Below are positions 2,241 through 56,491 of a DNA stretch of 64,000 bases, one piece after another. Each line of letters starts with the position of its first letter. Within the stretch, counting starts at the first letter, position 1. This DNA is from Allacma fusca (taxonomy: Eukaryota > Arthropoda > Collembola > Symphypleona > Sminthuridae), in the NCBI GenBank assembly GCA_947179485.1, contig OX359246.1, forward strand, positions 18,972,001-19,036,000, in the 5' to 3' direction. Position numbers and translations under genes: made by a program. The notes under the pieces are model-generated. The model saw only the letters and a program-made list of their open reading frames with translations. It was not told where the DNA came from and did not search any database.

Positions 2241-3260
2241 TATTTACGCCCTATTTCAAATGCTTGTTTTTCAGTAAAAAATCCAAAGTATATCGGATGA
2301 AGCAAAACCGTTTGGACTGTGCGTAAGTCGGATAAATAAAAACAATGATGTTTAAATTTCCCTGTTTTGGTCTATTGTTTATTTCACAAACGTATTTACG
2401 AAAATCCGCTCTCTCTCTTTTAACACCCTTATCAAAATTCTAAGCTACGGAGATGTTGTAGGAAATTTGAATTGGATTAACGTTGGGATTTTTGACAATT
2501 TCTACCCAAAATTAGGAAAAATTCATTTTTGACTGTATGCATTTTAATTATACCCTCAAAATTGTTCTCCTAATTTTATACACCTGAATATGCAGTTTGC
2601 CTCTAAACGCATAAATCCTCTTCCCATATTTTTTTACATACGGAACTGTTAATGATGCATCGGAATTCCAAGGATATTCCCAACAAACCAGTGTAAATAG
2701 TAATTTTAGAACCAATTTTCAATTTAAAGCAGACAACTTGAAATTTGACCATTTCAAAAGCCAGTACTGTACAATTTGCTTCAAAAATTTGCATTGCAGT
2801 AAGTATTGCTTTAACACATCCAGTCGATATTTCTCCATAGCGTTTGAAAAAAATATCTGTTTGCAAAAAACACCTGTGGCATGAAAATAATACACATAAA
2901 AAGTAAATATTGACGAATATTTGATAAAAGCGAATTAAATACATTTTGTTTAACTATTTTTAGGAAAATGAAGATGGAATGTTGAAAGATATCATCATCA
3001 TATACATTTAAAAATCTATAAATTACTTAACGTCAGAGTAGTAGCATTATTTTAATTTATTGTTATTAAGAGAATAATATCTTGAGACTTGGTTCCCTAG
3101 GAAATGGTCCTACAGTGTTTCAAAATCCCAAGTTATTTTCAATTAGGCATGTCACAGTTTATGCAATTATAAACACACGAGTACATTCTTACTTGAAATT
3201 TAAAATGCTTGTGGTCAGTGAATAATTGAGAAAGACGGTTAAATGAATGACGTTTAAAAT
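2241..3260. other. Unannotated AT-rich stretch
   Basis: Mostly AT-rich sequence with no supported gene. One minus-strand open frame (2603-2944, 113 codons) contains hydrophobic segments, but it has no relative in the window and no recognisable family, so I do not call it a gene. Confidence 0.45.
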
Positions 3261-3261
3261 C

Positions 3262-3710
3262 TCTAAGTTCGAATCGAAATTTAAATTCGAATCGAAATTT
3301 AAATTCGAATCGAAATTTAAATTCGAATCGAAATTTAAATTCGAATCGAAATTTAAATTCGAATCGAAATTTAAATTCGAATCGAAATTTAAATTCGAAT
3401 CGAAATTTAAATTCGAATCAAAATTTAAATTCGAATCGAAATTTAAATTCGAATCGAAATTTAAATTCGAATCGAAATTTAAATTCGAATCGAAATTTAA
3501 ATTCGAATCGAAATTTAAATTCGAATCGAAATTTAAATTCGAATCGAAATTTAAATTCGAATCGAAATTTAAATTCGAATCGAAATTTAAATTCGAATCG
3601 AAATTTAAATTCGAATCGAAATCTATATTCGAATCGAAGTTTAAATTCGAATCGAAATTTATATTCGAATCGAAGTTTAAATTTGAATCGAAGTTCAAGT
3701 TCTAATTGAA
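3262..3710. repeat. 18-bp satellite array, about 24 copies
   Basis: Monomer AAATTTAAATTCGAATCG repeated head to tail with very few changes in the centre and more at the right edge (3620-3710). Because the period is a multiple of three and lacks stops, both strands are open for about 150 codons (Phe-Glu-Ser-Lys type on plus, Asn-Phe-Asp-Ser type on minus). This is an artefact of the repeat, not a protein. Decayed relatives of the monomer occur at 31510-31730, 32840-33230, 48250-48465 and 49575-49970. Confidence 0.9.
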
Positions 3711-3769
3711 GTCCATGTTTTAATAAAATCGATTTAAAATTGAAGTTTAGGCTGAAGTTCATGTGCTCA

Positions 3770-4025
3770 TACTGTAAAGTCAGTAGTCGTCACGGGAACA
3801 GGTAACACCCGGGTACAGGGGAACTGGAACGAGTACAGGAACGGGTACGGTAACAAATATTTTGTTCCCAGTCAGTTTGGATATAGGAACAGGAACAAAC
3901 TCGGAGGTGGACCCGACCACGGGGAACAGGAACCGATGTTTTCAATTTGTTCCCTTTCCCGTCGGGAACGGGTACGCTCTACGCTGATCTCGTTCCCATA
4001 CCTGTTGTTCCCGGGATCGAGTGGA
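3770..4025. mobile_element. Truncated GGGAACAGG-type element
   Basis: Made of degenerate GGGAACAGG and GGGTACAGG words pointing inward from both sides, like the hAT-type element at 26740-27520. The ends (TAGTCGTCACGGGAACAGG on the left, the complement of a similar word near 4020) are only loosely inverted. No clean target duplication is visible. Shorter, right-truncated relatives sit at 33265-33480 and 50003-50218 in the tandem units, with the same left flank. Confidence 0.5.
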
Positions 4026-7960: not shown

Positions 7961-8981
7961 ATTTATTCCCAGGTTTACCAAAATTTTTTCATTGACCTTT
8001 CTCCAACTACTGAACAATTCAGGCTCAGATGAAAGTAACAAAAAGCTTGTTTTCTGTTTTCTGTAAAATATCTTACAAGTTAGAATGAAAGCATTTAAAA
8101 CTCTCGAAGAATCCAAAAATGAAGGAATTGTCAGCAAAAAATGATTTTGCTTGACAGTTCTTCTCGCTGAGACCTCAAATAATGAAGCAGGTCAATTAAT
8201 TAAATTTGAGGAGATATGAAACTAAATCACTGCAAAACGGGTCAACCAAATATTTTATTAGTATTCGCTGTGTGAGCTAGATAGATCGACAAATGCTTGT
8301 AGACACCCTGTACATGAACATCGGAAGATACTGTATTAAATAGCAAACGACGGAGTCACTGCAGTGTGTATTGAGTTGATAGGAAACACGCTCTTATGAA
8401 GTGTAACCTATGCGATGAGCACATAAAATCCTTATCGTTTTAATGCTTGGTTTGGATAATTTGTCTCTTTATCTTTTCAGCATAGCTTTAGTGGGAAAGT
8501 CCACTTTAGGAGTCACGAGTTTTGAAGGCTTGCTGAATTTGAATATTGTTTTGACGCATTTACAGTTAGACTGGAGGATTACGATTTGCATTTACAGCGA
8601 GATATTTTCAGGCAATTCTTCCTTTCGTGTGCAGGTATTAAAAAGTGCATTTGGAAGCTGCAATTAACAGACAACTGTTCTCACATCATTTCAAAAAACC
8701 CAATCACTTGTTCTTGTAATGAGTTCTGACCTCTGACCTCCAATAATTCCTCTCTTGGACTTCTCTCAATTCGCAGATATGTAAGTTCATTTTTTGCGTA
8801 ACTCGAACTGAAAATAAAATTATTGCCTTGATCTCTTTCCACTTTGACAGGGAAGCCAAAAGACTGAAGAAAATAAGTACAGCATGCCGAAAATATTTCT
8901 CCCCCTATACTGAAAAACTGAAAAGGACATCGCTTAATCCCTACGAGAAAATACCCTCTGTTCGATTTTAACAAAAAATTA
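7961..8981. repeat. Unit-specific spacer of the segmental array (unit 1)
   Basis: Homologous to 34870-35888 and 51605-52630. It contains a plus-strand stretch (about 8560-8660) that in units 2 and 3 lies in a 65-codon open frame (LEDYDSHLQRDIFRQLFLSC). Unit 1 has lost that frame. A possible exon is not excluded, but no family is recognised. The words GACACCCTGTAC near 8304 resemble the terminal word of Tc1/mariner-type elements. Confidence 0.5.
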
Positions 8982-10265: not shown

Positions 10266-11832
10266 CTGCACGGTGCGCCTTGATGCGTAGATCATTTTTG
10301 ATACTTGCTCCAATAAAATGTGACGACGTGATTTGGAGATATCCCGTGTCAAACTCACAAAAAATGACGGGGGGGGGGTGGGCTCATGGGGTACCAGAAA
10401 ATTCAAACAGTGAAAATTAGCAATATAACTTCAAAAATGGAAAAAATTAAATAAGGTTAAAAAAAATCACCGAGATATGACCTCAAAACTCCAAGATACT
10501 GACCTCAAGAGGTCAAAGAGCGTCGATACCGGTTTCATAATTCAAACGACAATGAAACTGGCCCAGATTAGAACTAGAGCTTTGACTAGACACATATTAA
10601 ACATGTGCCGAGTTTGGTTCCAGTTTGTGACAGGATGACCCAGCTGTGACCCCCGAGGCCAATATCTTAACCATACCGGATTTGGTACCTAACATTCGTT
10701 CGAATTAACTTAAAACAGGCTAGAACTTTTGATTTAAGACCAGATGAGTTGCCTGTCAAGTTTAGTTCCAGTTGGTGACACGATGACCCAGCTGTGACCT
10801 CAGAGGTCAATATCACACTCATACCGGATTTGGTACCTAAATATTATTCGAATTACCCGCAAATAGGCTAGAACTTTTGGTTTAGGCCCTGATGTGTTTC
10901 CCGTCAAGTTTGGTTCCAGTTGGATGATTTTAGGTACCTAATCCGGTATGGGTGTGATATTGACCTCGGGGGTCACACCTGGGTCATTGTGTTGCTAACT
11001 GGAACCAAACTAGGCAGGCACCTCATCGGAGCTGAAATCAAAGGTTCTAGCCTATTTGCGGGCAATTCGGATGATTTTTAGGTACCAAATCCGGTATGTG
11101 TGTGATAGTGACCTGGGAGGTCACAGATGGGTCAATATGTCACCAACTGGAACCAAACTTGACGGGAAACACATCAGGGCTTAAACCAAAAGTTCTAGCC
11201 TATTTTCGGCCGATTTTAATAATTTGTATGCACCAAATCCGGTATGGGTGTGACATTGACCTCTGAGGTCACAGCTGGGTCATCGTGTCACCAACTGGAA
11301 CTAAACTTGACAGCCAACTCATCTGGTCTTAAATCAAATGTTCTAGCATATTTGAGGTTAATTCGAACGAATGCTAGGTACCAAATCCGGTATGGGTAAG
11401 ATATTGGCCTTGGGGGTCACAGCTGGGTCATCCTGTCACAAACTGGAACCAAACTCGGCACACGTTGAATATGTGTCTAGTCAAAGCCCTAGTTCTAATG
11501 TGGGCCAGTTTCATCATCGTTTAAATTATGAAACCGGTATCGACGCTCTTTGACCACTTGAGGTCAGTATCTTGGAGTTTTGAGGTCATATCTCGGTGAT
11601 TTGTTTTGCACGTTATTTAATTTTTATTTAATTTTTATTATATATTATTATTATTTTTTTTTTTCATTTTTGAAGTTATATTGCTAATTTTCACTGCTTG
11701 AATTTTTTGGTACCCCATCAGCCCCCCCCTCATTTTTAGCAACTCTGACCCGATATATCTCCGAATACCATCGTCAGATTTTATTGTGGCAATTAGCAGA
11801 AATGACCTACGCATCAAGGCACACCCTGCAGT
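10266..11832. repeat. Fold-back repeat, unit 1 (about 165-bp monomers in inverted arms)
   Basis: Outer ends CTGCACGGTGCGCCTTGATG and the complement of CATCAAGGCACACCCTGCAG are inverted. Inside, monomers of about 165 bp, each with a TCCGGTATGG word, a GGTCACAGCTGGGTCA word and CCAACTGGAACCAAACT, run in one direction on the left and the opposite direction on the right, with the turn near 10920. Unit 1 has more right-arm monomers than units 3 and 4. Inverted similarity fades outward for another 40 bases. No protein is encoded. Target duplication is not evident. Confidence 0.85.
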
Positions 11833-12394: not shown

Positions 12395-14490
12395 GAAAAA
12401 TATCCTCCTTCGCATCGAGTCCCGATTGGACGATTTGACAAAAGCCGTTCATCAACTCAGGACCGAAAATGAGATTCTGCGGAAAGAGATCACTGGAGTC
12501 TCGTCTTTGCAAAATTCCCAGGCGTTTGCATTAATGGAAACCAGGACTTTGAGGGAAATTGTGGAAAGGACTGAATTTTGTGTCAACAAAATTAATTGGA
12601 AAAATTTGAAAAATGAAAGCGACCACGACGTTCCGAGGAAGTCAAAACCACAGGGAAAGGTGAAAGCAATTGAAACTGATGAAAGTGACAGCGAAAGTTC
12701 GGAGGAATCTGCAGAAGAATTTCCAGTTGTTGAAATTCGATCCAAAACATTGGCGGATGAAAGAGAATTTTTGAAGGAAACTTTCAATAAATTGATAAAA
12801 CAGAAAAAAGTCAAAGATGGTGAAAGCCTTCGTGGAACTTCTGTCCAAACGATTTCCAACTCAATTCCAGGAACATCGTGTACAATGAAGTTGTGTAAGA
12901 TTTTAAAATAATTAAGTTGTAAATCCGTGTTGCAATGAAATCTTATAAAGTTGGATGTAAACAATTTTTCAGCCAACTTTCTAGAATCCGCTCTCACAGA
13001 TCTCCAGTGTCATTTTTGGTATGGCTCAAAACACAGGGGACCTGCGAGTGTAGTTGGAAATTTTAGCGAAGTATTTTCTTTTGGAGGAGCTATGATAAAC
13101 AATGTGTAAGTTGAAGAACTTGGAACAATGACGAAAAATTTAATTTGGAATCCACGCAGCGTTTCCTTGAAGTTCATTTACAAAATTCGGCTCAAAATTA
13201 TTTAATTATGACTCAAATAGTTCAAATTGATTTACATTTTTAGTTATTGTTCCAATCATGATTACACTTTGTTTTTGCTTTAAACAATGAATTTGTTTCA
13301 GGAATTGGTGTAACTTCTTGTGCTCGTTCACAATTTCTAAAGTCCTGCGGTTAGCCATTTATTGTTATAGTAATCCTAATGGTACTATCCTATTCGGTAT
13401 TGGATTCATCCCAGCGGACGTTCCTACAAATAACACATTGTTGAACATATTACATCAATTGCCACCTGCACCGGATGTTTGGATGATGACTGTAATAACT
13501 TGTAATTATCTAACCAATAACAAAAAGCATGGAATAAAATCATTACATGAATTTATTTTCCGCAGAAAGAATGGAGCAAAATCCCACTAGAGCTTTTTGT
13601 AACCCGCGGAAATTTACTTGTGAGAGGTCACATGACCAATGGCCCACGATCCCTGGTTCATGTCGAAATTTTGGAATTAAATGGAATCTCATGGCCACAT
13701 TCTGTCTTTAATGGAAAGAAACGCCTTAGTAATGGAAAAGGTGTCGAATTCAATCAATCCACTAAAAAAGACGGCTCAAGTTCGAGATCAGTTGGAAAAT
13801 GCAGATTTTCTTGCAATGTTGAGATTGGTCAGTGATTTCAAACCTTTACAATTATTCACGGGAAATAAATGCAAATCGCAGTTGCATTTGGTTTAATTTT
13901 TTCAGTTAACTGTTTGAACGTTCCGTTGAGAAATAGGACTCAATTCTATTCCAATTCCAACGATAAGGATTTTTGGCCTCTGGAAATTCAATCTTTTCAT
14001 CGAGAAAGTTTTCTCGGATCAAGTGACACGTTGGACCTTATTTTATAAATTTTAATTGATGAGTACAAATCGGGTTTATTCCATTTGGTGATTTCAAATT
14101 ACGATCTCTTAATTTTGCAGGAATTTGGAAGCAATGTTTTCCTACGAAATTCTTTCCACGGACCTCGCTTTGGTAATTGCTTTAAAAGTTGGTCCTGGAA
14201 CAAATTCATTTGCGGCTGCTTTTGCTCAAATTCCAGCCGTCACTGAGAAAAAAGACCTGGAAGCTTTGATGAATCCAAATGAATGGAAAATCCATGATTA
14301 CGTGAAATATTCCAATGTAAGTATTTGTCTTCAAATATTGATTTTTTTTGTTTTTTAGCACTAATCGGGAGTACGCATTTTTTAGGCAAGCAAAACCTTG
14401 GAAGTAATTTCTGATCGAAATATTCGAGCTGAAATTCTGATGACGGAGGGAGAAAAATCAGTTTTGAAAATTCGAATTTATGGAGTGTAA
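12395..14490 (+). CDS. Two-domain actinoporin-like protein with coiled coil, copy 1 (5' partial)
   Basis: Seven exons fit with GT-AG introns: 12395-12894, 12973-13105, 13302-13491, 13566-13827, 13906-14029, 14121-14316, 14386-14490. The frame is open throughout, giving about 502 residues and a stop at 14488. The exon 5 donor (AC before GTTGG) is the weakest junction. Residues 1-35 form a leucine/charged coiled coil (LTKAVHQLRTENEILRKEI). Residues 75-150 are acidic and lysine-rich. Two similar domains follow at about 161-314 and 356-502. Each starts Ser-Cys-x-hydrophobic, has a Leu-x-Leu-Ala-Ile or Leu-Ala-Leu-Val-Ile core strand, and ends with Met-Thr-x-Gly before a hydrophobic strand (LVRGHMTNGPRSLVHVEI; IRAEILMTEGEKSVLKIRI). 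This pattern resembles actinoporin-like beta-sandwich proteins, which bind membranes and in some lineages form pores. Function here is inferred only. The start codon and any signal peptide lie on an unplaced upstream exon. Confidence 0.7.
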
Positions 14491-16260
14491 CCCAGGCATT
14501 ATTTTAGTGTATTTTGAACCAAAAATGCAATAAGATTCCACTGTTCACTATTTAATTAGTTTTCAGATGAAATTGTCAGATTCCTTGTGCTAAAATATTT
14601 TGGTTGTACATATTTAGTGGCAATACGTTGCACAGTATTTTATTATGAACATATAACTCTATAGCACAGCGGGTTAAACGAAGCGTTTTACATCCCTTCA
14701 GATTCCTCTCCTCTGTCCCCAAAAAGATTTTTAAAGTAAAAGGATTTTCTGGTAACCATGAATTAGTAAAAACTATTCTTAACAAAAAATGTTTTTCCAA
14801 CCCCATACACATATACAACATTGTCAAAAATATGGTTCCAATTTGTAAGAACTAGTTTCACTATTGCAGCCCAGAAATTTGCCCAGAATTTCAAAGTAGT
14901 AGTGTTAAAATAAATATTTTTACCATAACTAACATTTTGTTATTTTGAATAATAAATTGTGGCAATGTCTTGGGTTTCCAAACGAGCAGAACAAGAGCTC
15001 CCCAAGACGCATTTGTTTACTAGATTTTCCAGAATTTATTTCTAGTGCTGTTTCTGTAATCACAAGGAACACATGCTTAGGCAAAAATCTATATTCTTCA
15101 CGGATTTTGAAATAAAACGTTGTCTATTTCCACACAAAGCTTTTTCTAAAAATAGTTGTGAAGCAATGGGTTTTTTAACGGAAAACTTAATCATCACCAA
15201 CTGCATGTTTTAAATTTGTTTTCGAAAAATACAAAGGTAAATGGTAAACGTGCCAGGCGTCATGAAAAAATATTAATACGAGCCATTTAAACAAACTATT
15301 GACGTTCTTTGTCCTCCTTTTGAATTACATTACTAAATGAAGCATTTACGATAACTGGAATTAATTACTTATTTATGCCAATTAACTCATGTTAATTAGC
15401 ATGCAATTCAAACATACATCAATCCGCATAACTTTCCAAGTAAAACTCACTTTCTTCTACAAATGACAAAACACGACTTGTACATATTCCCATAATGCGT
15501 TCTCATTAAATGCTGTTGTTAAATATACGAAAGACACGGGTATTGACGCAACTATATGCATGTTTCGTATCTATATACCCCATAGCCCACATTAAGAACA
15601 GCGGCACAAAATATGTGATTCCCCTTCTTTAACAAATATAAGATGATATAATACTTAAGAAATATGCTAAGATTCAAATACCGAAACCGGAAAGTTTGAA
15701 CTTAGGGCTGGAACTGAAACGATTTTGGTAAAGCATGAAAATTTGTTAGAATTGGTGCAATGCAATGCATTTTACCGTTGCCTTTTCTATGTTGTGTGGT
15801 TAGGGTTAGAGCGGGGTACAAACGGATTATGCCAACCCTTTTAGTGCAGTTTGCCTTTATTCAGCTTTTACAGGTGCAAGTATCAAAAGGCAGAGTTTTT
15901 GCTGAGAAGAAATTAAATACGAGACATATGAAAGTTCCTTGACAGAGTCAATCCATCAAAATTTTGTCTACTTACTAAAAGACACTTGGGAAAATGTTAA
16001 AAACCAGTTGTCAGTTATCGCCACTTATGCTGACGTAATTTTTATCAATTAAAATGTGTGGTTGATTGCATTGAAAAATATCCTTTTAATTGTATACAAA
16101 GTAATTACTCTTATTGCGTTATTTCTAAATAACAACGCCTAAGGCACATGTTCTGAATTTAAACTGCAAATAATTCTAACAAAACCAAGGCGCCAATAAT
16201 GGTGGAGCATTATAAATATTATTTTATAATATTATTATTTTATTTTATTATTTATTACTA
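14491..16260. other. 3' spacer of unit 1
   Basis: Shared with units 2 and 3 (22049-23882, 39787-41774), with unit 4 lacking the stretch equivalent to about 14695-15375. It should contain the 3' UTR and polyadenylation site of gene copy 1, but no signal stands out. A minus-strand open frame at 14576-14827 is preserved in unit 2 but not in unit 3, so I do not call it a gene. At about 15990-16060 a decayed minus-strand relative of the STSAFLVITDN-encoding piece (see 7325-7960) is visible. Confidence 0.5.
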
Positions 16261-16942
16261 ACTTTGACGGATGAAAGAGAATTTTTGAAGGAAACCTTAA
16301 ACAAATTTAGAAATATAATTTATAAATAAAAATTATACATAGCAAAAGTACATTTGGCACATCTTTGCTCTTGAAAAGGAATTTCCTCCACCTTGCTCTC
16401 GGTTCTAGCAGTTCGTGCACCGTTCTGTAAATGACGTCCTCTCGAATAGCTTCCTGAAAAAGCAATAATTTGAAAAATATTAAAAAACCTAACCCAATTC
16501 AAACGATAAAAGCAACTGATTGTCAGTTTTGGTTTGATTTCTATTCTCCATCCATTCCATTCCTAAATTATAAAGGAAGTAAAAACCTATAGTTAAATAT
16601 TTTGTTTCAACATATAACATCATAGGGACATTCAAAACTCTGCCACAAAAATACGGAATTGTCATTCCAGATCCTTTCGTGTCGTTATTGATTCTCATAT
16701 TCATTTTCCAACTTCCGTACATTTTTAAATAGGAATTTTGTAAAATCCGCACGTTTGAATTAGGAGAAAAAAAGTCCTATTTCGCATCGAGCTCCGATTG
16801 GACAATTTGAGAAAAACCTTTTCCCATCTCAATACCTAAAATGAGACTTTGCGGAAAAAGATCCGTGGAGTCTCATTTCTGCAAGTTCCGAGTCATTGGG
16901 ATTAATCGAGAGCAGAACTTTGGGAGAAATTGCCAAAGAAAC
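16261..16942 (+). pseudogene. Fossil pieces of exon 1 of the actinoporin-like gene, unit 1
   Basis: 16261-16310 matches the end of exon 1 of the seven-exon gene, and 16741-16942 matches its beginning, including the splice-acceptor side and the coiled-coil codons. The pieces are in reversed order and separated by a minus-strand gene. They carry several breaks and are not expressed as this protein. Equal pieces occur at 23883-24565 and 41775-42460, so the fossil predates the expansion of the array. Confidence 0.75.
16320..16722 (-). CDS. Hypothetical 120-residue protein, unit 1
   Basis: Two exons on the minus strand, 16722-16494 and 16453-16320, with a 40-base GT-AG intron whose removal keeps the frame. 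The protein starts MYGSWKMNMRINNDTKGSG, has a hydrophobic middle (residues about 25-60, with a Tyr-Phe-Cys-Gly stretch) and a basic tail with a Cys-x2-Cys near the end. The start is the ATG at 16722-16720. The open frame continues upstream, so a longer form is possible. Unit 2 keeps an equivalent frame, while the unit 3 copy is disturbed. It lies between two fossil pieces of the actinoporin-like exon 1, on the opposite strand. No family is recognised. The main support is conservation plus a plausible tiny intron. Confidence 0.4.
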
Positions 16943-18782: not shown

Positions 18783-18982
18783 NNNNNNNNNNNNNNNNNN
18801 NNNNNNNNNNNNNNNNNNNNNNNNNNNNNNNNNNNNNNNNNNNNNNNNNNNNNNNNNNNNNNNNNNNNNNNNNNNNNNNNNNNNNNNNNNNNNNNNNNNN
18901 NNNNNNNNNNNNNNNNNNNNNNNNNNNNNNNNNNNNNNNNNNNNNNNNNNNNNNNNNNNNNNNNNNNNNNNNNNNNNNNNNN
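18783..18982. other. Assembly gap (200 N)
   Basis: Exactly 200 N. The base before the gap corresponds to about 25170 in unit 2 (about 43060 in unit 3), and the base after it to about 36710 (about 53430). The stretch between those points is 10.4 kb in unit 3 and 11.5 kb in unit 2, so the 200 is a placeholder. The gap ends inside the right arm of the fold-back repeat. Confidence 0.95.
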
Positions 18983-19370
18983 TGTGTGTGATATTGACCT
19001 GGGAGGTCACAGATGGGTCATCGTGTCACAAACTGGAACCAAGCTCGGTACACGTTTAATATGTGTCTAGTCAAAGACCTAGTTCTAATCGGGGCCAGTT
19101 TCATCCCCGTTTAAATTATGAAACCGGTATCGAAGCTCTTTGACCTCTTGAGGTCATATCTCGTTGATTTTGTTTTGCACATTATTTAATTTTTATTCTT
19201 GCCATTTTTGAATTTATAATGCTAACTTTCATTGTTTGAATTTTTGGTACCCCATTAGTCCCCCCCATCATTTTTTGTAACTTTGACCCGATATATCTCC
19301 GAATACCATCGTCAGATTTTATTGGGGCAATTAGCAGAAATGACCTACGCATCAAGGCGCAACCTGCAGT
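18983..19370. repeat. Fold-back repeat, unit 2 (right arm only)
   Basis: Matches 53431-53839. The left arm is lost in the adjoining gap. The outer end reads GGCGCAACCTGCAG. Confidence 0.85.
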
Positions 19371-19939: not shown

Positions 19940-22048
19940 GAAAAATATCCTCCTTCGCATCGAGTCCCGATTGGACGATTTGACAAAAGCCTTTCATCAA
20001 CTCAGGACCGAAAATGAGATTCTGCGGAAAGAGATCACTGGAGTCTCGCCTTTTCAAAATTCCGAGCCGTTTGGATTAATGGAAACCCGGACTTTGAGGG
20101 AAATTGTGGAAAGGACTGAATTTTGTGTCAACAAAATTAATTGGCAAAATTTGAAAAATGAAAGCGACCACGAAGTTCCGAGGAAGTCAAAACCACAGGG
20201 AAAGGTGAAAGCAATTGAAACTTACGAAAGTGACAGCGAAAGTTCGGAGGAATTTACAGAAGAATTTCCAGTTGTTGAAATTCGAACCAAAACATTGGCG
20301 GATGAAAGAGAATTTTTGAAGGAATCTTTCAATAAATTGATAAAAGAGAAAAAAGTCAAGGATGGTGAAAGCCTTCGTGGAACTTCTGTCCAAACGATTT
20401 CCAACTCAATTCCAGGATCATCGTGTACAATTAAATTGTGTAAGATTTTAAAATAATTAAGTTGTAAATCCGTGTTGCAATGAAATCGTATAAAGTTGGA
20501 TGTAAACAATTTTTCAGCCAACTTTCTAGAATCCGCTCTCACAGATCTCCAGTGTCATTTTTGGATTGGCTCAAGACACAGTGGACCTACGAGAGTAGTT
20601 GGGAATTTTTGCGAAGTATTGTCTTTCAGAGGAGCCATGGCTGTTGACAATCAGTAAGTTGAAGAATTTGGAGCAATGACGAAAAATTGAATTTGGAATC
20701 CACGCAGCGTTTCCTTGAAGTTCATTTACAAGAATCGGCTCTAAATTATTTAATTATGACTCGAATAGTTCATAATGATTTACATTTTTAGTTATTGTTC
20801 CAATCATGATTACACTTTGTTTTTGCTTTAAACAATGAATTTGTTTCAGCTTTTATTGTAACTTCTTGTGCTCGTTCGCAATTTCTAAAGTCCTGCGGTT
20901 AGCCATTTATTGCTATATTCGTTATGATGGTTCTATTCGTTTCGGTATTGGATTCACCTCAGCGGACGTTCCCACAAATCACACATTATACACCATATTA
21001 GATCAAATGCCACCTGCACCGGATGTTTGGATGATGAATGTAATAACTTGTAAATATCTAAGCAATAACAAAATGCATGGAATAAAATCATTACATGAAT
21101 TTATTTTTCGCAGAATAAATTGAGCAAAATCCCACTAGAGCTTTTTGTAACCCGCGGAAATTTACTTGTGAGAGGTCACATGACCAATGGCCCACGATCC
21201 ATGGTTCATGTCGAAATTTTCGAATTAAATGGTATTTCATGGCCACATTCTGTCTTTAAAGGAAAGAAACGCCTTAGTAATAGAAAAGGCGCCGAATTCA
21301 GTCAATCCACTAACAAAGACGGCTCAATTTCAAGATCAGTTGGAAAATGCGGAAGATTCTCTTGCAATGTTGAGATTGGTCAGTGATTTCAAACCTTTAC
21401 AATTATTCACGGAGAAATAAATTAAAATCGCAGTTGCATTACTGGTTTAATTTTTTCAGTCAACTGTTTGAACGTTCCGTTGAGAAATAGGAATAAATTC
21501 TATTCCAATTCCAACGATAAACATTTTTGGCCTCTGGAAATTCAACCTTTTCATCGAGAAAGTTTTCTCGGATCAAGTGACACGTTGGACCTTATTTTAT
21601 TAATTTTAATAGATGAGTGCAAATCGGGTTTATTGCATTTGGTGATTTCAAATTATGATCTCTTAATTTTTTGCAGGAATTTCGAAGCAATGTTTTCCTA
21701 CGAAATTCTTTCCACGGACCTCGCTTTGGTAATTGCTTTGAAAGTTGGTCCTGGAACCAATTCATTTGCGGCTGCTTTTACTCAAATTCCAGCCGTCACT
21801 GAGAAAAAAAACCTGGAAGCGTTGATGAGTCCAAATGAATGGAAAATCCATGATTACGTGAAATATTCAAATGTAAGTATTTGTCTTCAAATATTGATTT
21901 TTTTTTTGTTTTTTAGCACTAATCGGGAGTACGCATTTTTTAGGCAAGCAAAACCTTGGAAGTAATTTCTGATCGAAATATTCGAGCTGAAATTCTGATG
22001 ACGGAGGGAGAAAAATCAGTTTTGAAAATTCGGATTTATGCAGTGTAA
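19940..22048 (+). CDS. Two-domain actinoporin-like protein with coiled coil, copy 2 (5' partial)
   Basis: Exons 19940-20439, 20518-20653, 20850-21039, 21114-21378, 21460-21583, 21677-21872 and 21944-22048 keep one frame to the stop at 22046. The plan matches copy 1: coiled coil, acidic linker, then two beta-rich domains, with lengths within two codons. The first domain reads CYIRYDGSIRFGIGF at the region that binds lipid headgroups in actinoporins, which is more variable between copies than its surroundings. Unlike the other copies, intron 5 (21584-21676) is 93 bases long, a multiple of three, and has no in-frame stop, so its retention would insert 31 residues between the domains. Family assignment is by pattern, as for copy 1. 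Confidence 0.7.
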
Positions 22049-23882
22049 CCCAGGATTTATTTTAGTGTATTTCGAACCAAAAATGCAATAAGATTCCACT
22101 GTTCACTATTTAATTAGTTTTCAGATGAAATTGCCAGATTCCTTGTGCTAAAATATTTTGGTTGTACATATTTAGTGGCAATACGTTGCACAGTATTTTA
22201 TTATGAACATATAACTCTATAGCACAGCGGGTTAAACGAAGCGTTTTACATCCCTTCAGATTCCTCTCCTCTGTCCCCAAAAAGATTGTTAAAATAAAAG
22301 GATTTTCTGGTAACCATGAATTAGTAAAAACTATTCTTAACAAAAAATGTTTTTCCAACCCCATACACATATACAACGTTGTCAAAAATATGGTTCCAAT
22401 TTGTAAGAACTAGTTTCACTATTGCAGCCCAGAAATTTGCAACAGCTTTCAAAGTAGTGGTGTTAAAATAAATATTTTTACCATAACTAACATTTTGTTA
22501 TTTTGAATAATAAATTGTGGCAATGTCTTGGGTTTCCAAACGAGCAGAACAAGAGCTCCCCAAGACGCATGTAAAGCGATCTTGAGGCACAAAGTTATAA
22601 AATAAAATATTTTATTTTACCAATTTGTAGGAGATTATTTCCTAGATTTTCCAAAATTTATTTCTAGCGCAGTTTCTCTAATCACAAGGAACACATGCTG
22701 TGGGAAAAATTTATATTCTTCTCGGATTTTGAAATAAAACTTTATCTATTTCCACACAAAGCTTTTTCTAAATATAGTTGTGAAGCAGTGGGTTTTTTAA
22801 AGGAAAACTTAATCATCACGAACTACATATTTTAAATTTGTTTTCGAAAAATATAAAAGTAAATGCGAAACCTGCCAGGCGTCATGAAAATATATTAATA
22901 CGAGGCATTCAAACAAATTATTGTCGTTCGTTGTCCTCCATTTGAATTACATTACTATATAATGCATTTACCATAACTGGAATTAATTACTTATTTATGC
23001 CAATTAACTCATGTTAATTAGGATGCAATTCAAACATACATCAATTCGCATAACTTTCCAAGTAAAACTCACTTTCTTCTACAAATGACAAAACACGACT
23101 TGTACATATTCCCATAATGCGTTCTCATTAAATGCTGTTGTTAAATATACGGAAGACACGGGTATTGACGCAACTATATGCACGCTTCGTATCTATATTC
23201 CCCATAGCCCACATTAAGAACAGCGGCACAAAATATGTGATTCTCCTTATTTAACAAATATAAGATGATATAATACTTAAGAAATATGCTAAGATTCAAA
23301 TACCGAAACCGGAAAGTTTGAACTTAGGGCTGGAACTGAAACGATTTTGGTAAAGCATGAAAATTTGTTAGAATTGGTGCAATGCAATGCATTTTACCGT
23401 TGCCTTTTCTATGTTGTGTGGCTAGGGTTAGAGCGGGGTACAAACGGATTATGCCAACCCTTTTAGTACAGTTTTCGTTTATTCAGCTTTTACAGGTGCA
23501 AGTATCAAAAGGCAGAGTTTTTGCTGAGAAGAAATTAAATACGAGACATATGAAAGTTCCTTGACAGAGTCAATCCATCAAAATTTTGTCTACTTACTAA
23601 AAGACACTTGGGAAAATGTTAAAAACCAGTTGTCAGTTATCGCCACTTATGCTGACGTAATTTTTATCAATTAAAACGTGTGGTTGATTGCATTGAAAAA
23701 TATCCTTTTAATTGTATACAAAGTAATTACTCTTATTGCGTTATTTCTAAATAACAACGCCTAAGGCACATGTTCTGAATTTAAACTGCAAATAATTCTA
23801 ACAAAACCAAGGCGCCAATAATGGTGGAGCATTATAAATATTATTTTATAATATTATTATTTTATTTTATTATTTATTACTA
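22049..23882. other. 3' spacer of unit 2
   Basis: Nearly identical to the unit 1 spacer apart from a short insertion near 22570-22640 that unit 3 shares. No gene is supported. The minus-strand open frame 22110-22385 parallels 14576-14827. Confidence 0.5.
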
Positions 23883-24565
23883 ACTTTGACGGATGAAAGA
23901 GAATTTTTGAAGGAAACCTTAAACAAATGTAGAAATATAAATTATAAATAAAAATTATACATAGCAAAAGTACATTTGGCACATCTTTGCTCTTGAAAAG
24001 GACTTTCCTCCACCTTGCTCTCGGTTCTAGCAGTTCGTGCACCGTTCTGTAAATGACGTCCTATCGAATAGCTTCCTGAAAAAGCAATAATTTGATTCTA
24101 TAAATTGATAATAACCCAATTCAAACGTTAAAAGCAACTGATTGTCGGTTTTGGTTTGATTTCTATTCTCCATCCATTCCATTCCTAAATTATAAAGGAA
24201 GAAAAAACCTTTAGTTAAATATTTTGTTTCAACATATAACATCATAGAGACACTCAAAACTCTGCCACAAAAATACGGAATTGTCATTCCAGATCCTTTC
24301 GTGTCGTTATTGATTCTCATATTCATTTTCCAACTTCCGTACATTTTTAAATAGGAATTTTGTAAAATCCGCACGTTTGAATTAGGAGAAAAAAAGTCCT
24401 ATTTCGCATCGAGCTCCGATTGGACAATTTGAGAAAAACCTTCTCCCATCTCAATACCTAAAATGAGACTTTGCGGAAAAAGATCCGTGGAGTCTCATTT
24501 CTGCAAGTTCCGAGTCATTGGGATTAATCGAGAGCAGAACTTTGGGAGAAATTGCCAAAGAAACT
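23883..24565 (+). pseudogene. Fossil pieces of exon 1 of the actinoporin-like gene, unit 2
   Basis: Same arrangement as 16261-16942: the piece from the end of exon 1 lies first (23883-23930) and the piece from its beginning lies second (24363-24565). Several breaks. Near-identity to unit 1 contrasts with the greater difference between the live gene copies. Confidence 0.75.
23942..24344 (-). CDS. Hypothetical 120-residue protein, unit 2
   Basis: Minus-strand exons 24344-24116 and 24075-23942, again with a 40-base intron. The intron sequence has diverged in its middle while both exons stayed open and in phase, which favours a real gene. The protein is nearly identical to the unit 1 copy, with the same Tyr-Phe-Cys-Gly middle and Cys-x2-Cys tail. 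Function unknown. Confidence 0.4.
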
Positions 24566-32833: not shown

Positions 32834-33249
32834 GAATTAGAATTTAGATTCACGTTAGAATGAGTTTAAGGTTCGGATCCAAGTTCAAGTTTGAACTTAC
32901 AATTAGATTCGAATTTTAATGTTGTTGCACGTTTGGATTAAGTTTAAGGTTTCTGATATAAGTTCAAGTATGAATTGAAATGAATTCAAGTTTGAAAAGA
33001 AGGTCAAGTTTGGATCGAAGATGAATTTGTATTCGAAATTTCAATTTCAAACGAAGTTGCAGTTTCGATCGAAGTTCAAGTATGAATTGAAATTCAAGTT
33101 TGAGTCGAAGATCAAAATCGATTCGAAATTTAAATTCGAATTGAAATTTAAATTCGAATCAAAATTTATATTCGAATCGAAGTTCAAGTTCTAATTGAAG
33201 TCCAAATTTTAATAAATTCGATTTAAAATTGAAGTTTAGGCTGAAGTTC

Positions 33250-34574: not shown

Positions 34575-35888
34575 AACAACATTTTGCGTTTATTTTCAAA
34601 GCACTTAAAATAATCAGACGCAATTAAACACTCAAATCCCCTTTCGTTGTCAGTGATCTTCAAAAACGCTGATGTAGAGTTCTCATCAATCAAAATGTGT
34701 CTGTTTGGCAGTATCGATACAATTTGAAATTACATACGACATATTGAAATCCTGTCTGCTTTAAATAGCACTGCAGAAAGAACATGTTGTACATACAGGG
34801 AGACCACAATCATTTGTCTCCCTCGGACTCACATAAGGCAGTCCCTGATACAACATTTCATTCAGCAATTTGTAGCTAATTTATTCCCAGGTTTACCAAA
34901 ATTTGTTCATTGACCTTTATCAAACTACTGAACAATTCAGGTTCAGATGAAAGTAACAAAATGCTTGTTTTCTGTTTTCTAAAAAATGTTTTACAAATTA
35001 CAATGAAAATATTTAAAACTCGGAGAATCCAAAAATGAAGGAATTGTCTGCAAAATTTATTTTCTTTGACAGTTCTTCTCGCTGAGGTCTTGAATAATGA
35101 AGCAGGTCAATTAAATAAATTTAAAGAGATATGAAACTAAATAACTGCGACAGGAGGAACCAAATATCTATTAATAATAACTGTGTGAGCTGGATAGATC
35201 GACAAATGCTTGTAGACACCCTGTACATGAACAGCGGAAGATACTGCAGGAGCAAACGACGGAGTCACTGCACTGTATTGAGGTGAAAGGAAACACGCTC
35301 TTATAAAGTGTACCCTATGCGATGAGCAAATAAAATCCTTATCGTTTTAATGCTTGGTTCAGATAATTTGTCTCTTTATCTTTTCATCATAACCTTTGTG
35401 GGAAAATAGTCCACTTGAGGAGTCACGAGTTTTGAATGATTGCTGAATTTGCATATTGTTTTGAAGCGTTTACAATTAGACTGGAGGATTACGATTCGCA
35501 TTTACAGCGAGATATTTTCAGGCAACTCTTCCTTTCGTGTGCAGGTATTGATAAGTGCTTTTGGAAGCTACAATTAGCAGACAACTGTTCTCACATCATT
35601 TCAAAAAATCCAATCACTTGTTCTTCTAATTAGTTCCGACCTCGGACCTCCAATAATTCCACCTTGGTCTTCCCCCAATTCGTAGACATGTAAGTCCATT
35701 TTTTCCGTAACTCGAACTGAAACTAAAATTTTTGCCTTGATCTCTTTCCAGTTTGACAGGGAAGCCAAAAGGCTAAAGAAAATAAGTACAAGGTGCCGAA
35801 AATATTTCTCCCTATCTACTGAAAAACTGAAAACGTCATTGTATAATCCCTAAGAGAAAATGCCCTCTGTTTGATTTTAGCAATAATA
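34575..35888. repeat. Unit spacer with decayed minus-strand coding remnants, unit 2
   Basis: Homologous to 7640-8981. On the minus strand it keeps GLPYVSPRETNDCGLPVC (about 34865-34795) and STSAFLKITDNERGFECL (about 34680-34630), the Ulp1-like and following pieces of the decayed gene. On the plus strand 35436-35633 is open for 65 codons and recurs in unit 3, with no recognisable family. Broken overall. Confidence 0.45.
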
Positions 35889-35891
35889 TCA

Positions 35892-37112
35892 CTGCAGGGT
35901 GCGCCTTGATGCGTAGGTCATTTCCGCTAATTGCCCCAATAAAATCTGACGATGGTATTCGGAGATATATCGGGTCAAAGTTACAAAAAATGAGTTGGGG
36001 GGACTAATGGGGTACCAAAAAATTCAAACAATGAAAATTAGCATTATAAATTCAAAAATGGCAAGAATAAAAATTAAATAATGTGCAAAACAAAATCAAC
36101 GAGATATGACCTCAAGAGGTCAAAGAGCTTCGATACCGGTTTCATAATTCAAACGGGGATGAAACTGGCCCAGATTAGAACTAGGTCTTTGACTAGACAC
36201 ATATTAAACGTGTGCCGAGTTTGGTTCCAGTTTGTGACACGATGACCCAGCTGTGACCCCCGAGGTCAATATCTTACCCATACCGGATTTGGTACCTAAA
36301 ATACGTTCGAATTGTCTGCAAATAGGTTAGAACGTTTGATTTAAGACCAGATCAGTTGCCTGTCAAGTTTAGTTCCAGTTGGTGACACGATGACCCAGTT
36401 GTGACCTCAGAAGTCAATATCACACTTATACCGGATTTGGTACCTAAAAATTATTCGAATTACCCGGAAATAGACTAGAATTTTTGGTTGAAGCCTAGAT
36501 GTGTTGCCTGGCAAGTTTGGTTCCAGTTGGATGATTTTTAGGTACCTATTCCAGTATGGGTAAGATATTGACTTCGGGGGTCACAGCTGGGTCATTGTGT
36601 TGCTAACTGGAACCAAACTAGGCAGGAACATCATCGGAGCTGAAACTCAAGGTTCTAGATTATTTGCGGGCAATTCGGATGATTTTTAGATACCAAACCC
36701 GGTATGTGAGTGATATTGACCTGGGAGGTCACAGATGGGTCATTGTGTCACCAACTGGAACCAAACTCGGCGCACGTTTAATATGTGTCTAGTCAAAGAC
36801 CTAGTTCTAATCTGGGCCAGTTTCATCCCCTTTTAAATTATGAAACCGGTATCGAAGCTCTTTGACCTCTTGAGGTCAGTATCTTGGAATTTTGAGGTCA
36901 TATCTCGTTGATTTTGTTTTGCACATTATTTAATTTTTATTTTTGCCGTTTTTGAATTTATAATGCTAATTTTCATTGTTTGAATTTTTTGGTACCCCAT
37001 TAGTCCCCCCTCATTTTTTGTAACTTTGACCCGATATATCTCCGAATACCATCGTCAGATTTTATTGGGGCAATTAGCAGAAATGACCTACGCATCAAGG
37101 CACACCCTGCAG
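35892..37112. repeat. Fold-back repeat, unit 3
   Basis: Ends CTGCAGGGTGCGCCTTGATG and its inverted counterpart CAAGGCACACCCTGCAG. Fewer internal monomers than unit 1. Nearly identical to the unit 4 copy. Confidence 0.88.
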
Positions 37113-37682: not shown

Positions 37683-39786
37683 GAAAGATATCCTCCTTCG
37701 CATCGAGTCCCGATTGGACGATTTGACAAAAGCCGTTCATCAACTCAGGACCGAAAATGAGATTCTGCGGAAAGAGATTACTGGAGTCTCGCCTTTTCAA
37801 AATTCCGAGCCGTTTGGATTAATGGAAACCAGGACTTTGAGGGAAATTGTGGAAAGGACTGAATTTTGTGTTAACAAAATTAATTCAAAAAATTTGACAA
37901 ATGAAAGCGAAGCCGAAGTTCCGAAGAAGTCAAAACCACAGGGAAAGGTGAAAGCAATTGAAACTGATGAAAGTGACAGCGAAAGTTCGGAGGAATCTGC
38001 AGAAGAATTTCCAGTTGTTGAAATTCGATCCAAAATTTTGGCGGATGAAAGAGAACTTTTGAAGGAAACTTTCGATAAATTGATAAAAGAGAAAAAAGTC
38101 AAGGATGGTGAAAGCCTTCGTGGAACGTCTGTCCAAACTATTTCCAACTCAAATCCTTACACATCGTGTACAATGAAATTGTGTAAGATTTTAAAATAAT
38201 TTAGTTGTAAATCCGTGTTGCAATGAAATCGTATAAAGTTGGATGTAAACAATTTTTCAGCCAACTTTCTAGAATCCGCTCTCACAGATCTCCAGTGTCA
38301 TTTTTGGTATGGCTCAAGACACAGTGGACCTACGAGAGTAGTTGGAAATTTTAGCGAAGTATTTTCTTTCAGAGGAGTTATGGTAAACAATCTGTAAGTT
38401 GAAGAATTTGGAACAATGACGAAATATTTTATTTGGAATCCACGGCAGCGTGTCGTTGTAGTTCATTTTCAAGAATCGGCTCTAAATTATTTAATTATGA
38501 CTCAAATAGTTCATAATGATTCACATTTTTAGGTATTGTTCCAATCATGCTTACACTTTTTTTTGCTTTCAACAATGTATTTGTTTCAATTCAAGGTGTG
38601 GCTTCTTGTTCTCGTTCGCAATTTCTAAAGTCCTGCGGTTAGCCATTTATTGTTATAGTAATCCTAATGGTAATATTCTATTCGGTATTGGATTCACCCC
38701 AGCGGACGTTCCTACAATTCACACATTGCTCACCATATTAAATGAAATGCCACCTGCACCGGATGTTTGGATGATGGATGTAATAACTTGTAAATTCTAA
38801 GCAATAACAAAATGCATGGAATAAAATCATTACATGAATATTTTTCCGCAGAAAGAAGCGAGCAAAATCCCACTAGAGCTTTTTGTAACCCGCGGAAATT
38901 TACTTGTGAGAGGTCACATGACCAATGGCCCACGATCCATGGTTCATGTCGAAATTTTGGAATTAAATGGAATCTCATGGCCACATTCTGTCTTTAAAGG
39001 AAAGAAACGCCTTAGTAATGGAAAAGGTGACGAATTCAATCAATCCACCAACAAAGACGGCTCAATTTCAAGATTAGTTGGAAAATGCGGAAGATTCTCT
39101 TGCAATGTTGAGATTGGTCAGTGATTTCAAACCTTTACAATTATTCACGGGGAAATAAGTGAAATCTCAGTTGCATTACTGGTTAAATTTTTTCAGTTAA
39201 CTGTTTGAACGTTCCGTTGAGAAATAGGAATAAATTCTATTCCAATTCCAACGATAAGGATTTTTGGCCTCTGGAAATTCAACCTTTTTATCGAGAAAGT
39301 TTTCTCGGATCAAGTGACACGTTGGACCTTATTTTATAAATTTCAATAGATGAGAACAAATCGGGTTTATTGCGTTTGGCGATTTGAATTTATCATCTCT
39401 TAATTTTGCAGGAATTTGGAAGCAATGTTTTCCTACGAAATTCTTTCCACGGACCTCGCTTTGGTAATTGCTTTGAAAGTTGGTCCAGGAACCAATTCAT
39501 TTGCGGCTGCTTTTTCTCAAATTCCAGCCGTCACTGAGAAAAAAGACCTGGAAGCTTTGATGAATCCAAATGAATGGAAAATCCATGAATACGTGAAATA
39601 TTCAAATGTAAGTGTTTTGTCTGCAAATATAGATTTTTCTGTTTTGCTTTTTAGCACTAATCGGGAGTACGCATTTTTTAGGCAAGCAAAACCTTGGAAG
39701 TAATTTCTGTTCGAAATATTCGAGCTGAAATTCTGATGACGGAAGAGGAAAAATCAGTTTTGAAAATTCGAATTTATGCAGTGTAA
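37683..39786 (+). CDS. Two-domain actinoporin-like protein with coiled coil, copy 3 (5' partial)
   Basis: Exons 37683-38182, 38261-38393, about 38596-38779, 38852-39116, 39197-39320, 39412-39607 and 39682-39786 keep the frame to the stop at 39784. The beginning of exon 3 differs from the other copies and is the least certain junction. Domain layout is as in copy 1: coiled coil, acidic linker (ETDESDSESSEESAEE), and two similar beta-rich domains with Met-Thr-x-Gly words near their ends. Several residues in the linker differ from copies 1 and 2 (about 6 percent of bases over the first exon). Whether this copy is expressed cannot be judged from sequence. Confidence 0.6.
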
Positions 39787-51606: not shown

Positions 51607-52630
51607 TTTGTAGATAATTTATTCCCAGGTTTAACAAAATTTGTTCATTGACCTATTTATCCAGCTACTGAACAATTCAGGTTCAGATGAAAGTAACAAA
51701 ATGCTTGTTTTCTGTTTTCTAAAAAATGTCTTACAAATTACACTGAAAATATTTAAAACTCGGAGAATCCAAAAATGAAGGAATTGTCTGCAAAATTTAT
51801 TTCCTTGACAGTTCTTCTCGCTGAGGCCTTGAATAATGAAGCAGGTCAAATTAAATAAATTTGAGGAGATATGAAACTAAATAACTGCGACAGGGGGAAC
51901 CGAATGTCTATTAATAATAACTGGGTGAGCTAGATAGATCGACAAATGCTTGTAGACACCCTGTACATGAACAGCGGAAAATACTGCAGGAGCGAACAAC
52001 GGAGTCACTGCACTGTATTGAGGTGAAAGGAAACACGCTCTTATAAAGTGTACCCTATGCGATGAGCACATAAAATCCTTATCGTTTTAATGCTTGGTTC
52101 AGATAATTTGTCTCTTTATCTTTGCATCATAACTTTTGTGGGAAAATAGTCCACTTGAGGAGTCACGAGTTTTGAATGATTGCTGAATTTGCATATTGTT
52201 TTGAAGCGTTTACAATTAGACTGGAGGATTACGATTCGCATTTACAGCGAGATATTTTCAGGCAACTCTTCCTTTCGTGTGCAGGTATTGATAAGTGCTT
52301 TTGGAAGCTACAATTAGCAGACAACTGTTCTCACTTCCTTTCAAAAAATCTAATCACTTGTTCTTCTAATTAGTTCTGACCTCTGACCTCCAATAATTCC
52401 TCTCTTGGACTTCACCCAATTCGCAGATATGTAAGTCCATTTTTTCCGTAACTCAAACTGAAACTAAAATTTTTGCCTTGATCTCTTTCCACTTTGACCG
52501 GGAAGCCAAAAGGCTAAAGAAACTAAGTATAAGGTGCCGAAAATATTTCTCCCTATCTACTGAAAAACTGAAAACGTCATTGTATAATCCCTAAGAGAAA
52601 ATGCCCTCTGTTTGATTTTAGCAAAAATAT
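51607..52630. repeat. Unit spacer, unit 3
   Basis: Homologous to 34870-35888 and 7961-8981. It includes the 65-codon plus-strand frame 52176-52373, which is not assigned to a family. Confidence 0.45.
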
Positions 52631-54395: not shown

Positions 54396-56491
54396 GAAAA
54401 ATATCCTCCTTCGCATCGAGTCCCGATTGGACGATTTGACAAAAGCCGTTCATCAACTCAAGACCGAAAATGAGATTCTGCGGAAAGAGATCACTGGAGT
54501 CTCGTCTTTTCAAAATTCCGAGCCGTTTGGATTAATGGAAACGAGGACTTTGAGGGAAATTGTGGAAAGGACTGAATTTTGTGTCAACAAAATTAATTGG
54601 CAAAATTTGAAAAATGAAAGCGACCACGAAGTTCTGAGGAAGTCAAAACCACAGGGAAAGGTGAAAGCAATTGAAACTGATGAAAGTGACAGCGAAAGTT
54701 CGGAGGAATTTGCAGAAGAATTTCCAGTTGTTGAAATTCGATCTAAAACATTGGCGGATGAAAGAGAATTTTTGAAGGAAACTTTCAATAAATTGATAAA
54801 AGAGAAAAAAGTCAAGGATGGTGAAAGCCTTCGGGGAACTTCTGACCGAACGATTTCCAACTCAACTCCAGGAACATCGTGTACAATGAAATTGTGTAAG
54901 ATTTTAAAATAATTAAGTCATAAATCCGTGTTGCAATGAAATCGTATAAAGTTGGATGTAAACAATTTTTCAGCCAACCTTCTAGAATCCTTCCTCACAG
55001 ATCTCCAGTGTGATTTTTGGCTTGGCTCAAGACACAGTGGACCTGCGAGTGTAGTTGGAAATTTTAGCGAAGTATTTTCTTTCAGAGGAGATATGATAGG
55101 CAATCTGTAAGTTGAAGAATTTGGAGCAATGACGAAAAATTGAATTTGGAATCCACGCAGCATTTCCTTGAAGTTCATTTACAAGAATCGGCTCTAAATT
55201 ATTTAATTATGACTCGAATAGTTCATAATGATTTACATTTTTAGTTATTGTTCGAATCATGATTACACTTTGTTTTTGCTTTAAACATTGAATTTGTTTC
55301 AGGTCTAGGTGTAGCTTCTTGTGCTCGTTCGCAATTTCTAAAGTTCTGCGGTTAGCCATTTATTGCGATATTCATCCTGATGGTTTTATTTGTTTCGGTA
55401 TTGGATTCACCCCAGCGGACGTTCCTACAGATGAAACATTGTTCACCATATTAAATGAAATGCCACCTGCACCGGATGTTTGGATGATGAATGTAATAAC
55501 TTGTAAATATCTAAGCAATAACAAAATGCATGGAATAAAATCATTACATGAATTTATTTTCCGCAGAATGATTGGAGCAAAATCCCACTAGAGCTTTTTG
55601 TAACCCGCGGAAATTTACTTGTGAGAGGTCACATGACCAATGGCCCACGATCCATGGTTCATGTCGAAATTTTGGAATTAAATGGAATCTCATGGCCACA
55701 TTCTGTCTTTCAAGGAAAGAAACGCCTTAGTTATGGAAAAGGTGTCGAATTCAATCAATTAACTAACAAAGACGGCTCAATTTCAAGATCAGTTGGAAGA
55801 TTTTCTTGCAATGTTGAGATTGGTCAGTGATTTCAAACCTTTACAATTATTCACGGGGAAATAAATGAAAATCGCAGTTGCATTTGGTTTAATTTTTTCA
55901 GTTAACTGTTTGAACGTTCCGTTGAGAAATAGGAATAAATTCTCTTCCAATTCCAACGATAAGGATTTTTGGCCTCTGGAAATTCAACCTTTTTATCGAG
56001 AAAGTTTTCTCGGATCAAGTGACACGTTGGACCTTATTTTATAAATTTCAATAGATGAGAACAAATCGGGTTTATTGCGTTTGGCGATTTGAAATTATCA
56101 TCTCTTAATTTTGCAGGAATTTGGAAGCAATGTTTTCCTACGAAATTTTTTCCACGGACCTCGCTTTGGTAATTGCTTTGAAAGTTGGTCCTGGAACCAA
56201 TACTTTTGCGGCTGCTTTTACTCAAATTTCAGCCGTCGCTGAGAAAAAATACATGGAAGCGTTGATGAATCCAAATGAACAGAAAATCCATGATTACGTG
56301 AAATATTCAAATGTAACTGTTTTGTCTCTAAACATGGATTTTTCTGTTTTGCTTTTTAGCACTAATCGAGAGTACGCTTTTTTTAGGCAAGCAAAACCTT
56401 GGAAGTAATTTCTGTTCGAAATATTCGAGCTGAAATTCTGATGACAGAAGGAGAAAAATCAGTTTTGAAAATTCGAATTTATGCATTGTAA
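54396..56491 (+). CDS. Two-domain actinoporin-like protein with coiled coil, copy 4 (5' partial)
   Basis: Exons 54396-54895, 54974-55106, 55303-55492, 55567-55822, 55902-56025, 56117-56312 and 56387-56491 keep one frame to the stop at 56489. The layout equals copy 1. The linker between domains is two codons shorter than in copy 1, and the lipid-site-like stretch of domain one reads CDIHPDGFICFGIGF. Splice phases entering each domain are 1, 2 and 0, as in all copies. The unit around it ends soon after the gene: part of the 3' spacer is missing and a transposon follows at 57162. Confidence 0.7.

Follow-up and report, generated by a model that had tools for sequence, protein, structure and literature searches.

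Introduction

Actinoporin-like proteins are reported from cnidarians, molluscs, sponges, fish, plants, fungi, oomycetes and bacteria (PMC8778704; PMC12197748). They are defined by fold, namely a ten-strand beta sandwich with helices and a structure close to that of the actinoporins, whose lipid-binding region is placed under the C-terminal helix (PMC12197748). A crustacean member is named from Xibalbanus (PMC8778704); in the excerpted remipede venom paper, the trace of actinoporins is an InterPro number in the methods only (PMC5577568). HALT-4, Fav and LitP-4 carry an extra N-terminal region ahead of the fold (PMC10305222; PMC12197748), as does the gene described here, from the globular springtail Allacma fusca. 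HALT-4 is said to have a signal peptide, which is not seen in the springtail protein, and the excerpted accounts of these three proteins do not mention a zipper joined to tandem domains (PMC10305222; PMC12197748). The gene lies in a window of 64,000 nucleotides, the whole stretch of DNA analyzed, which corresponds to C8:18972001-19036000 on chromosome 2 of the 392,743,791-base genome (C1, C8 and C10 denote chromosomes 1, 2 and 3).

The predicted product of about 503 residues opens with a leucine-zipper-type helix, followed by a flexible acidic linker and then by two domains, D1 and D2, an architecture that the computations support. Like the actinoporins (FraC, equinatoxin II and the sticholysins; PF06369), both domains have a predicted ten-strand sandwich with a C-terminal helix, and they show distant sequence homology to them by way of a second springtail gene, L031. 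Unlike the actinoporins, the protein has its domains in tandem behind a zipper, has no signal peptide that can be seen, has lost an aromatic stretch and does not match PF06369. The preferred reading, to which a rough probability of 0.42 is given, is that D1 acts as a variable reader on an intracellular zipper dimer with D2 as its scaffold, the membrane-binding parts of the fold having been turned into a binding surface. No description of a tandem, zipper-linked or hexapod actinoporin-like form was found in the open-access literature, which does not prove its absence from print.

Gene structure

The first gene copy in the window (copy 1) has seven exons that join at GT-AG sites into a single frame of 502 residues:

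12395..12894, forward strand: exon 1, heptad zipper helix followed by an acidic linker, more helices and the start of D1 strand 1
12973..13105, forward strand: exon 2, remainder of D1 strand 1 through strand 3, phase 1
13302..13491, forward strand: exon 3, D1 strands 4-6 and helix, phase 2; holds 17 of the 30 hypervariable positions described below
13566..13827, forward strand: exon 4, D1 strands 8-10, linker and first D2 residues, phase 0
13906..14029, forward strand: exon 5, remainder of D2 strand 1 through strand 3, phase 1
14121..14316, forward strand: exon 6, D2 strands 4-6 and helix, phase 2
14386..14490, forward strand: exon 7, final D2 strands and stop, phase 0

These exons were derived anew, and they reproduce the coordinates and phases of a sequence-only reading made earlier of the same DNA. 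Three further copies in the window likewise form one open frame each, so that the four span 500-504 residues (501-505 codons with the stop); at the DNA level the other three are 93-94% like copy 1:

19940..22048, forward strand: copy 2, seven exons, open
37683..39786, forward strand: copy 3, seven exons, open, with the exon 3 acceptor moved 6 bases
54396..56491, forward strand: copy 4, seven exons, open

Copy 3 has lost the usual exon 3 acceptor and has an AG six bases further on, so the frame is kept. In copy 2, the exon 5 frame meets no stop within intron 5, which leaves positions 21426-21965 open through the intron.

The junctions are also used by a database protein, P0001 (source jgi), which has 503 amino acids encoded on a 1663-base contig without introns and for that reason probably derives from a transcript. 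It is 87% identical to the copy 1 model across its whole length. In the compared parts of exons 2-6 it equals the copy at C8:19104-19106 kb (40/40, 63/63, 87/87, 40/40 and 65/65 residues). Over exon 1, by contrast, the closest counterpart is copy 2 (163/166), the copy at C8:19104-19106 kb being only 88% alike, and because of this split P0001 may be chimeric, either a recombinant allele or an assembly chimera of two copies; its support for the junctions is held with that reserve.

The sequence-only reading had left the first exon to be found. A probable 5' non-coding exon is now placed upstream of copies 1, 3 and 4, where a donor, AT|GTAAGT, is conserved at 8780, 35689 and 52430:

8770..8780, forward strand: 3' end of the probable 5' non-coding exon of copy 1, in a conserved stretch shared with copies 3 and 4
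35679..35689, forward strand: 3' end of the probable 5' exon of copy 3, a match to the conserved pattern
52420..52430, forward strand: 3' end of the probable 5' exon of copy 4, conserved pattern with an in-frame stop upstream

Ending as it does, this exon would contribute the A and T of the start codon, the ATG being split AT|G with exon 1. Copies 1 and 4 have an in-frame stop shortly upstream of the split ATG, and the predicted N terminus, M-K-N-I-L-L, agrees with the start of P0001 (M-K-N). A hydropathy scan of this N terminus, bounded by the upstream stop, reveals no signal peptide (best 11-residue value 0.15). Upstream of copy 2, an assembly gap of 200 N (18783-18982) lies near the expected place of its 5' exon.

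Coiled coil and predicted fold

The coiled-coil front proposed by the sequence-only reading is borne out by both the sequence pattern and the model. In all 27 of the exon 1 copies compared (of 30 loci), positions 5, 8, 12, 15, 19, 22, 29 and 33 are hydrophobic and position 26 is Asn, and the remaining positions of the zipper stretch are hydrophobic in just 15% of cases. In leucine zippers, a buried Asn at such a position favors parallel dimers. The AlphaFold model, computed from an alignment of 38 close relatives that all belong to one species, predicts helices at residues 2-34, 50-73 and 120-139, separated by linkers with a predicted local distance difference test score (pLDDT) below 50. It then predicts a ten-strand sandwich with a C-terminal helix in D1 and again in D2. 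In classical actinoporin toxins, an amphipathic helix at the N terminus packs on the sandwich. A model built from 9 alignment rows was poor (pLDDT 34.8) and was not used.

In a fold comparison, the D1 and D2 models both match actinoporin structures. Fungal fruit-body lectins, thermostable direct haemolysin and aegerolysins appear to align with lower Z and over shorter lengths. Judged by modeled fold, both domains would thus be actinoporin-like, in keeping with the earlier two-domain claim, and neither was drawn to a different fold.

Several weaker matches were set aside. A sequence-profile search of the PDB returned MS2 coat protein twice, with E 0.04 and 0.47, and both hits are taken as chance. 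A viral fold library returned uncharacterized giant-virus proteins from Pandoravirus celtis and Terrestrivirus (the BFVD pair A0A4D6EIA8 / A0A3G4ZRL1) as weak actinoporin-like fold matches, with E 4.5e-4 and TMt 0.47 for Pandoravirus celtis and E 0.03 and TMt 0.52 for the Terrestrivirus protein; the top row has TM 0.10.

Descent and internal duplication

The sequence-only reading had proposed checking the domains against Pfam and by structure prediction. On the Pfam side, PF06369 (Anemone_cytotox) gives no match over its cut-off for the seven single exons, the spliced protein, each domain or nine relatives. When the A. fusca genome is searched with PF06369, a single match over the cut-off is obtained, on chromosome 3. 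It belongs to L031 (C10:20439 kb), which scores 56.9 bits on its single open frame:

L031:1264-2326, reverse strand: single-domain gene with four exons and GT-AG sites, over the PF06369 cut-off

L031 is thus a single-domain PF06369 gene in a hexapod genome. Searched against the PDB, its third exon finds equinatoxin II with E 6e-11, and its exons of 124, 124, 220 and 132 bases enter in phases 0, 1, 2 and 0. One such gene was found, and unlike the twin-domain gene it has a single domain, shows no coil in its first exon and retains the actinoporin stretch.

The resemblance of L031 to the twin-domain gene extends to intron phase, exon sequence and the motif that opens the domain. The exons of D1 (2-4) and of D2 (5-7) each enter in phases 1-2-0, as do those of L031, and exon 5 is 124 bases long, like the second exon of L031. 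When profiles of the single exons are scored against the matching L031 exon, five of the six comparisons exceed shuffled controls: exon 2 with 12.6 bits (0 of 2000 shuffles as good), exon 3 with 14.3 (0 of 2000), exon 4 with 5.6 (4 of 2000), exon 5 with 9.7 (1 of 2000) and exon 6 with 6.4 (0 of 2000). Exon 7 against the last L031 exon reaches 1.3 bits, which 149 of 2000 shuffles equal, and is not above chance. All 12 deliberately wrong exon pairings with L031 are negative or without a match. Before the profile test, exon 3 by itself had matched the third L031 exon in BLASTP with E 0.010. Introns 1 and 4 cut after a C-x-h-x-h stretch, as in L031, and the shared domain opening noted earlier recurs there as C-x-h-x-h-x-N, with Asn in place of Ser before the Cys. 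The residue matches earlier drawn between exons 4 and 7 prove weaker than claimed, exon 7 being the one that fails its shuffles.

Direct comparison of D1 with D2 is marginal. BLASTP finds just a 24-residue out-of-register match (E 0.86); hhalign gives E 0.27 and, in a second comparison, E 0.053, a result equaled by 10 of 300 column shuffles, and its reversed control scores 14.1 against 17.3. What supports the internal duplication inferred by the sequence-only reading is therefore where the introns fall, the fold and the third gene, and on these it holds. From the matching phases, exon profile scores and shared C-x-h-x-h cut, D1 and D2 each derive from a 1-2-0 three-exon actinoporin-like unit, and a tandem duplication of this unit, with a phase-1 intron at either end, produced the pair. 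Five of six exons above shuffles and the phases held in common with L031 likewise point to common descent with the actinoporins.

At the aligned place, D1 and D2 both lack the aromatic stretch present in L031, which is taken here to be the phosphocholine and sphingomyelin stretch of actinoporins. This loss, together with the lack of a visible signal peptide, makes a secreted pore-former less likely. A pore-forming protein of defense or offense could still be envisaged in which D1 and D2 bind membranes, the upstream helix inserts, the coil oligomerizes or masks the protein, and release follows cell damage. Such a protein would have the same predicted fold as known pore-formers and a helix modeled at 120-139, and in Hydra the cytolytic HALT-4 has an extended N-terminal region that is described as containing a coiled coil (PMC10305222). 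That helix is, however, separated from D1 by a low-confidence linker, and with the two absences above this explanation is considered unlikely.

Variation and selection

Nonsynonymous (N) and synonymous (S) substitutions were obtained as minimum-change counts among seven close local copies. The coil has 45 N and 19 S (omega 0.63) and D1 exon 4 has 20 N and 8 S (omega 0.75); the front of D1 differs from D2 in its N/S ratio (Fisher 0.044). For an independent choice of sites, D1 positions with entropy of at least 1.5 were taken from remote copies only (13-20 loci per exon, matches with stops dropped), and changes at the resulting 30 hypervariable positions were then counted in the local copies. 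These positions have 55 N and 2 S (omega 5.9, P 0.0013). Elsewhere in D1 the counts are 32 N and 11 S, and in D2 they are 33 and 11; both differ from the hypervariable positions (Fisher 0.0018 and 0.0020, respectively). Entropy cut-offs of 1.0, 1.5 and 2.0 agree, with omega values of 3.1, 5.9 and 9.7.

Nearly all hypervariable positions (28 of 30) fall in strand 2 (180-188), the 3-4 turn (205-216), the 5-6 turn (232-242), the helix (256-264) and residues 277-281. Mean entropy is 1.36 in the 3-4 turn, 2.03 in the 5-6 turn and 1.62 in the helix of D1, and 0.73, 0.85, 0.62 and 0.35 in turns 2-3, 4-5, 8-9 and 9-10. Aligned to L031, the 5-6 turn of D1 corresponds to the aromatic stretch and the D1 helix to the L031 helix, elements that carry the phosphocholine site in actinoporins. 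The counts support selection clustered on a few D1 elements, including the apparent counterparts of the toxins' membrane-binding loop and helix.

The same data bear on whether the protein is a housekeeping lectin that binds carbohydrate or lipid in storage, cuticle or egg, with D1 loops that vary through relaxed constraint and gene conversion and no arms race. This is improbable, since the same positions change in separate sets of copies with omega 5.9, with no excess in D2 or elsewhere in D1.

Family size and genomic setting

Exon 1 is found at at least 58 places in the A. fusca genome, of which chromosome 2 carries 54 and chromosome 1 the other 4, and some places are partial or have stops; as 85 of 488 candidates were scored, this is a lower bound for places and not for working genes. 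Within the last 1.7 Mb of chromosome 2 lie 34 of these places, and the biggest cluster of the family, C8:73.9-75.6 Mb, adjoins the chromosome end. Thirty loci, each about 3.5 kb long, were compared, and in 15 of them every exon from 1 to 6 is matched and free of stops. The interval C8:33.75-33.79 Mb contains two or more divergent copies.

Outside A. fusca, a search of 5.8 billion proteins, with about 8000 candidates scored per search, returned no named relative with the twin-domain architecture; the search requires shared five-residue words, and distant relatives elsewhere may be missed. Two A. fusca models, P0010 and P0011, fuse a divergent family member to an alpha-1,2-mannosidase and are probably annotation chimeras. 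The apparent link of the family to alpha-mannosidases, which also drew in the mannosidases P0031 (Prorops nasuta) and P0032, is discounted as a probable fused gene model; P0031 and P0032 were dropped from the alignment of relatives, and P0010 and P0011 were trimmed.

The copies sit in repeat units 7.5-17.7 kb apart that contain foldback repeats. A selfish element or part of a meiotic-drive system could account for this setting, with copies spreading together with larger repeat units and variation arising from conflict within the genome. The crowding of exon 1 toward the end of chromosome 2 fits such an origin, and paternal genome elimination is reported for A. fusca (PMC9630974). The seven coding exons, conserved introns and tandem arrangement speak against it, as does homology to an ordinary gene, L031, found once by the PF06369 search, and this origin is given little credence.

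Upstream of copy 1, the foldback arms lie at 10441-10923 and 11143-11625 (up to 483 bases, 92% complementary). Similar foldbacks occur at 36107-36878 upstream of copy 3 and at 52833-53604 upstream of copy 4, with a related piece at 18983-19276 upstream of copy 2. Decayed pieces of exon 1 (76-89% alike) lie downstream of copy 1 (16260-16313 and 16756-16932), copy 2 (23882-23928 and 24378-24554) and copy 3 (41776-41829 and 42273-42449) and are probably relics of further duplicates. An 18-base repeat array at 3206-3843 is open in several frames, and shorter related arrays lie near 32965 and 49703. No Rfam family matches at its gathering score, and a scan for bacterial-type promoters was uninformative for an animal gene.

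Discussion

In the preferred reading, the protein would stay inside the cell and pair through its N-terminal zipper. D2 would serve as the steadier scaffold and D1 as the variable reader, in which the counterparts of the lipid loop and helix would form a rapidly diversifying surface for binding microbes, parasites or selfish agents through their lipids, glycans or proteins. Many specificities would come from the number of tandem copies, from duplication within the arrays and from positive selection acting repeatedly, and pore formation would be an unlikely mode of action. The oligomerization and the membrane or glycan binding suggested earlier are likewise conjectural. TRIM5-type restriction factors have a coiled-coil dimer that bears a beta sandwich with hypervariable loops; they offer an analogy of working only, the fold being different and no homology claimed.

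Several observations weigh against this reading. Taken whole, D1 exons 2-3 have 102 N and 19 S (omega 1.46), which does not depart significantly from neutrality (P 0.076), and constraint on D2 is not significant either (40 N and 17 S, omega 0.65, P 0.095). The test is a minimum-change count, with no codon model and with gene conversion between copies not modeled. Hypervariable positions 192 and 226 fall outside the elements listed above, and the strand 1-2 turn is not variable (mean entropy 0.67). The structure model comes from 38 near relatives of one species, with a predicted template modeling score of 0.44 and linkers below pLDDT 50, and its helix at 120-139 upstream of D1 is a candidate membrane helix. 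The verdict on the signal peptide comes from a hydropathy scan and no trained predictor, at an N terminus whose 5' exon is inferred. Finally, matched pieces contain a stop at 8 of the 30 loci, and at 7 of 30 an exon is missing from the stretch of about 3.5 kb.

A broader proposal, that the family is a lineage-specific, germline-diversified system of intracellular recognition with a logic like that of variable and constant parts in immune receptors, is drawn by analogy and held as doubtful. The gene is, in the meantime, a clear case of domain duplication that can be read from three sets of matching introns, and the findings suggest an unfamiliar family of recognition or defense proteins in a globular springtail. 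If the preferred reading is true, a toxin fold can become a diversifying recognition module, in a hexapod with dozens of zipper-linked twin-domain copies, and the family would offer a concrete set of genes in which such a conversion can be tested.
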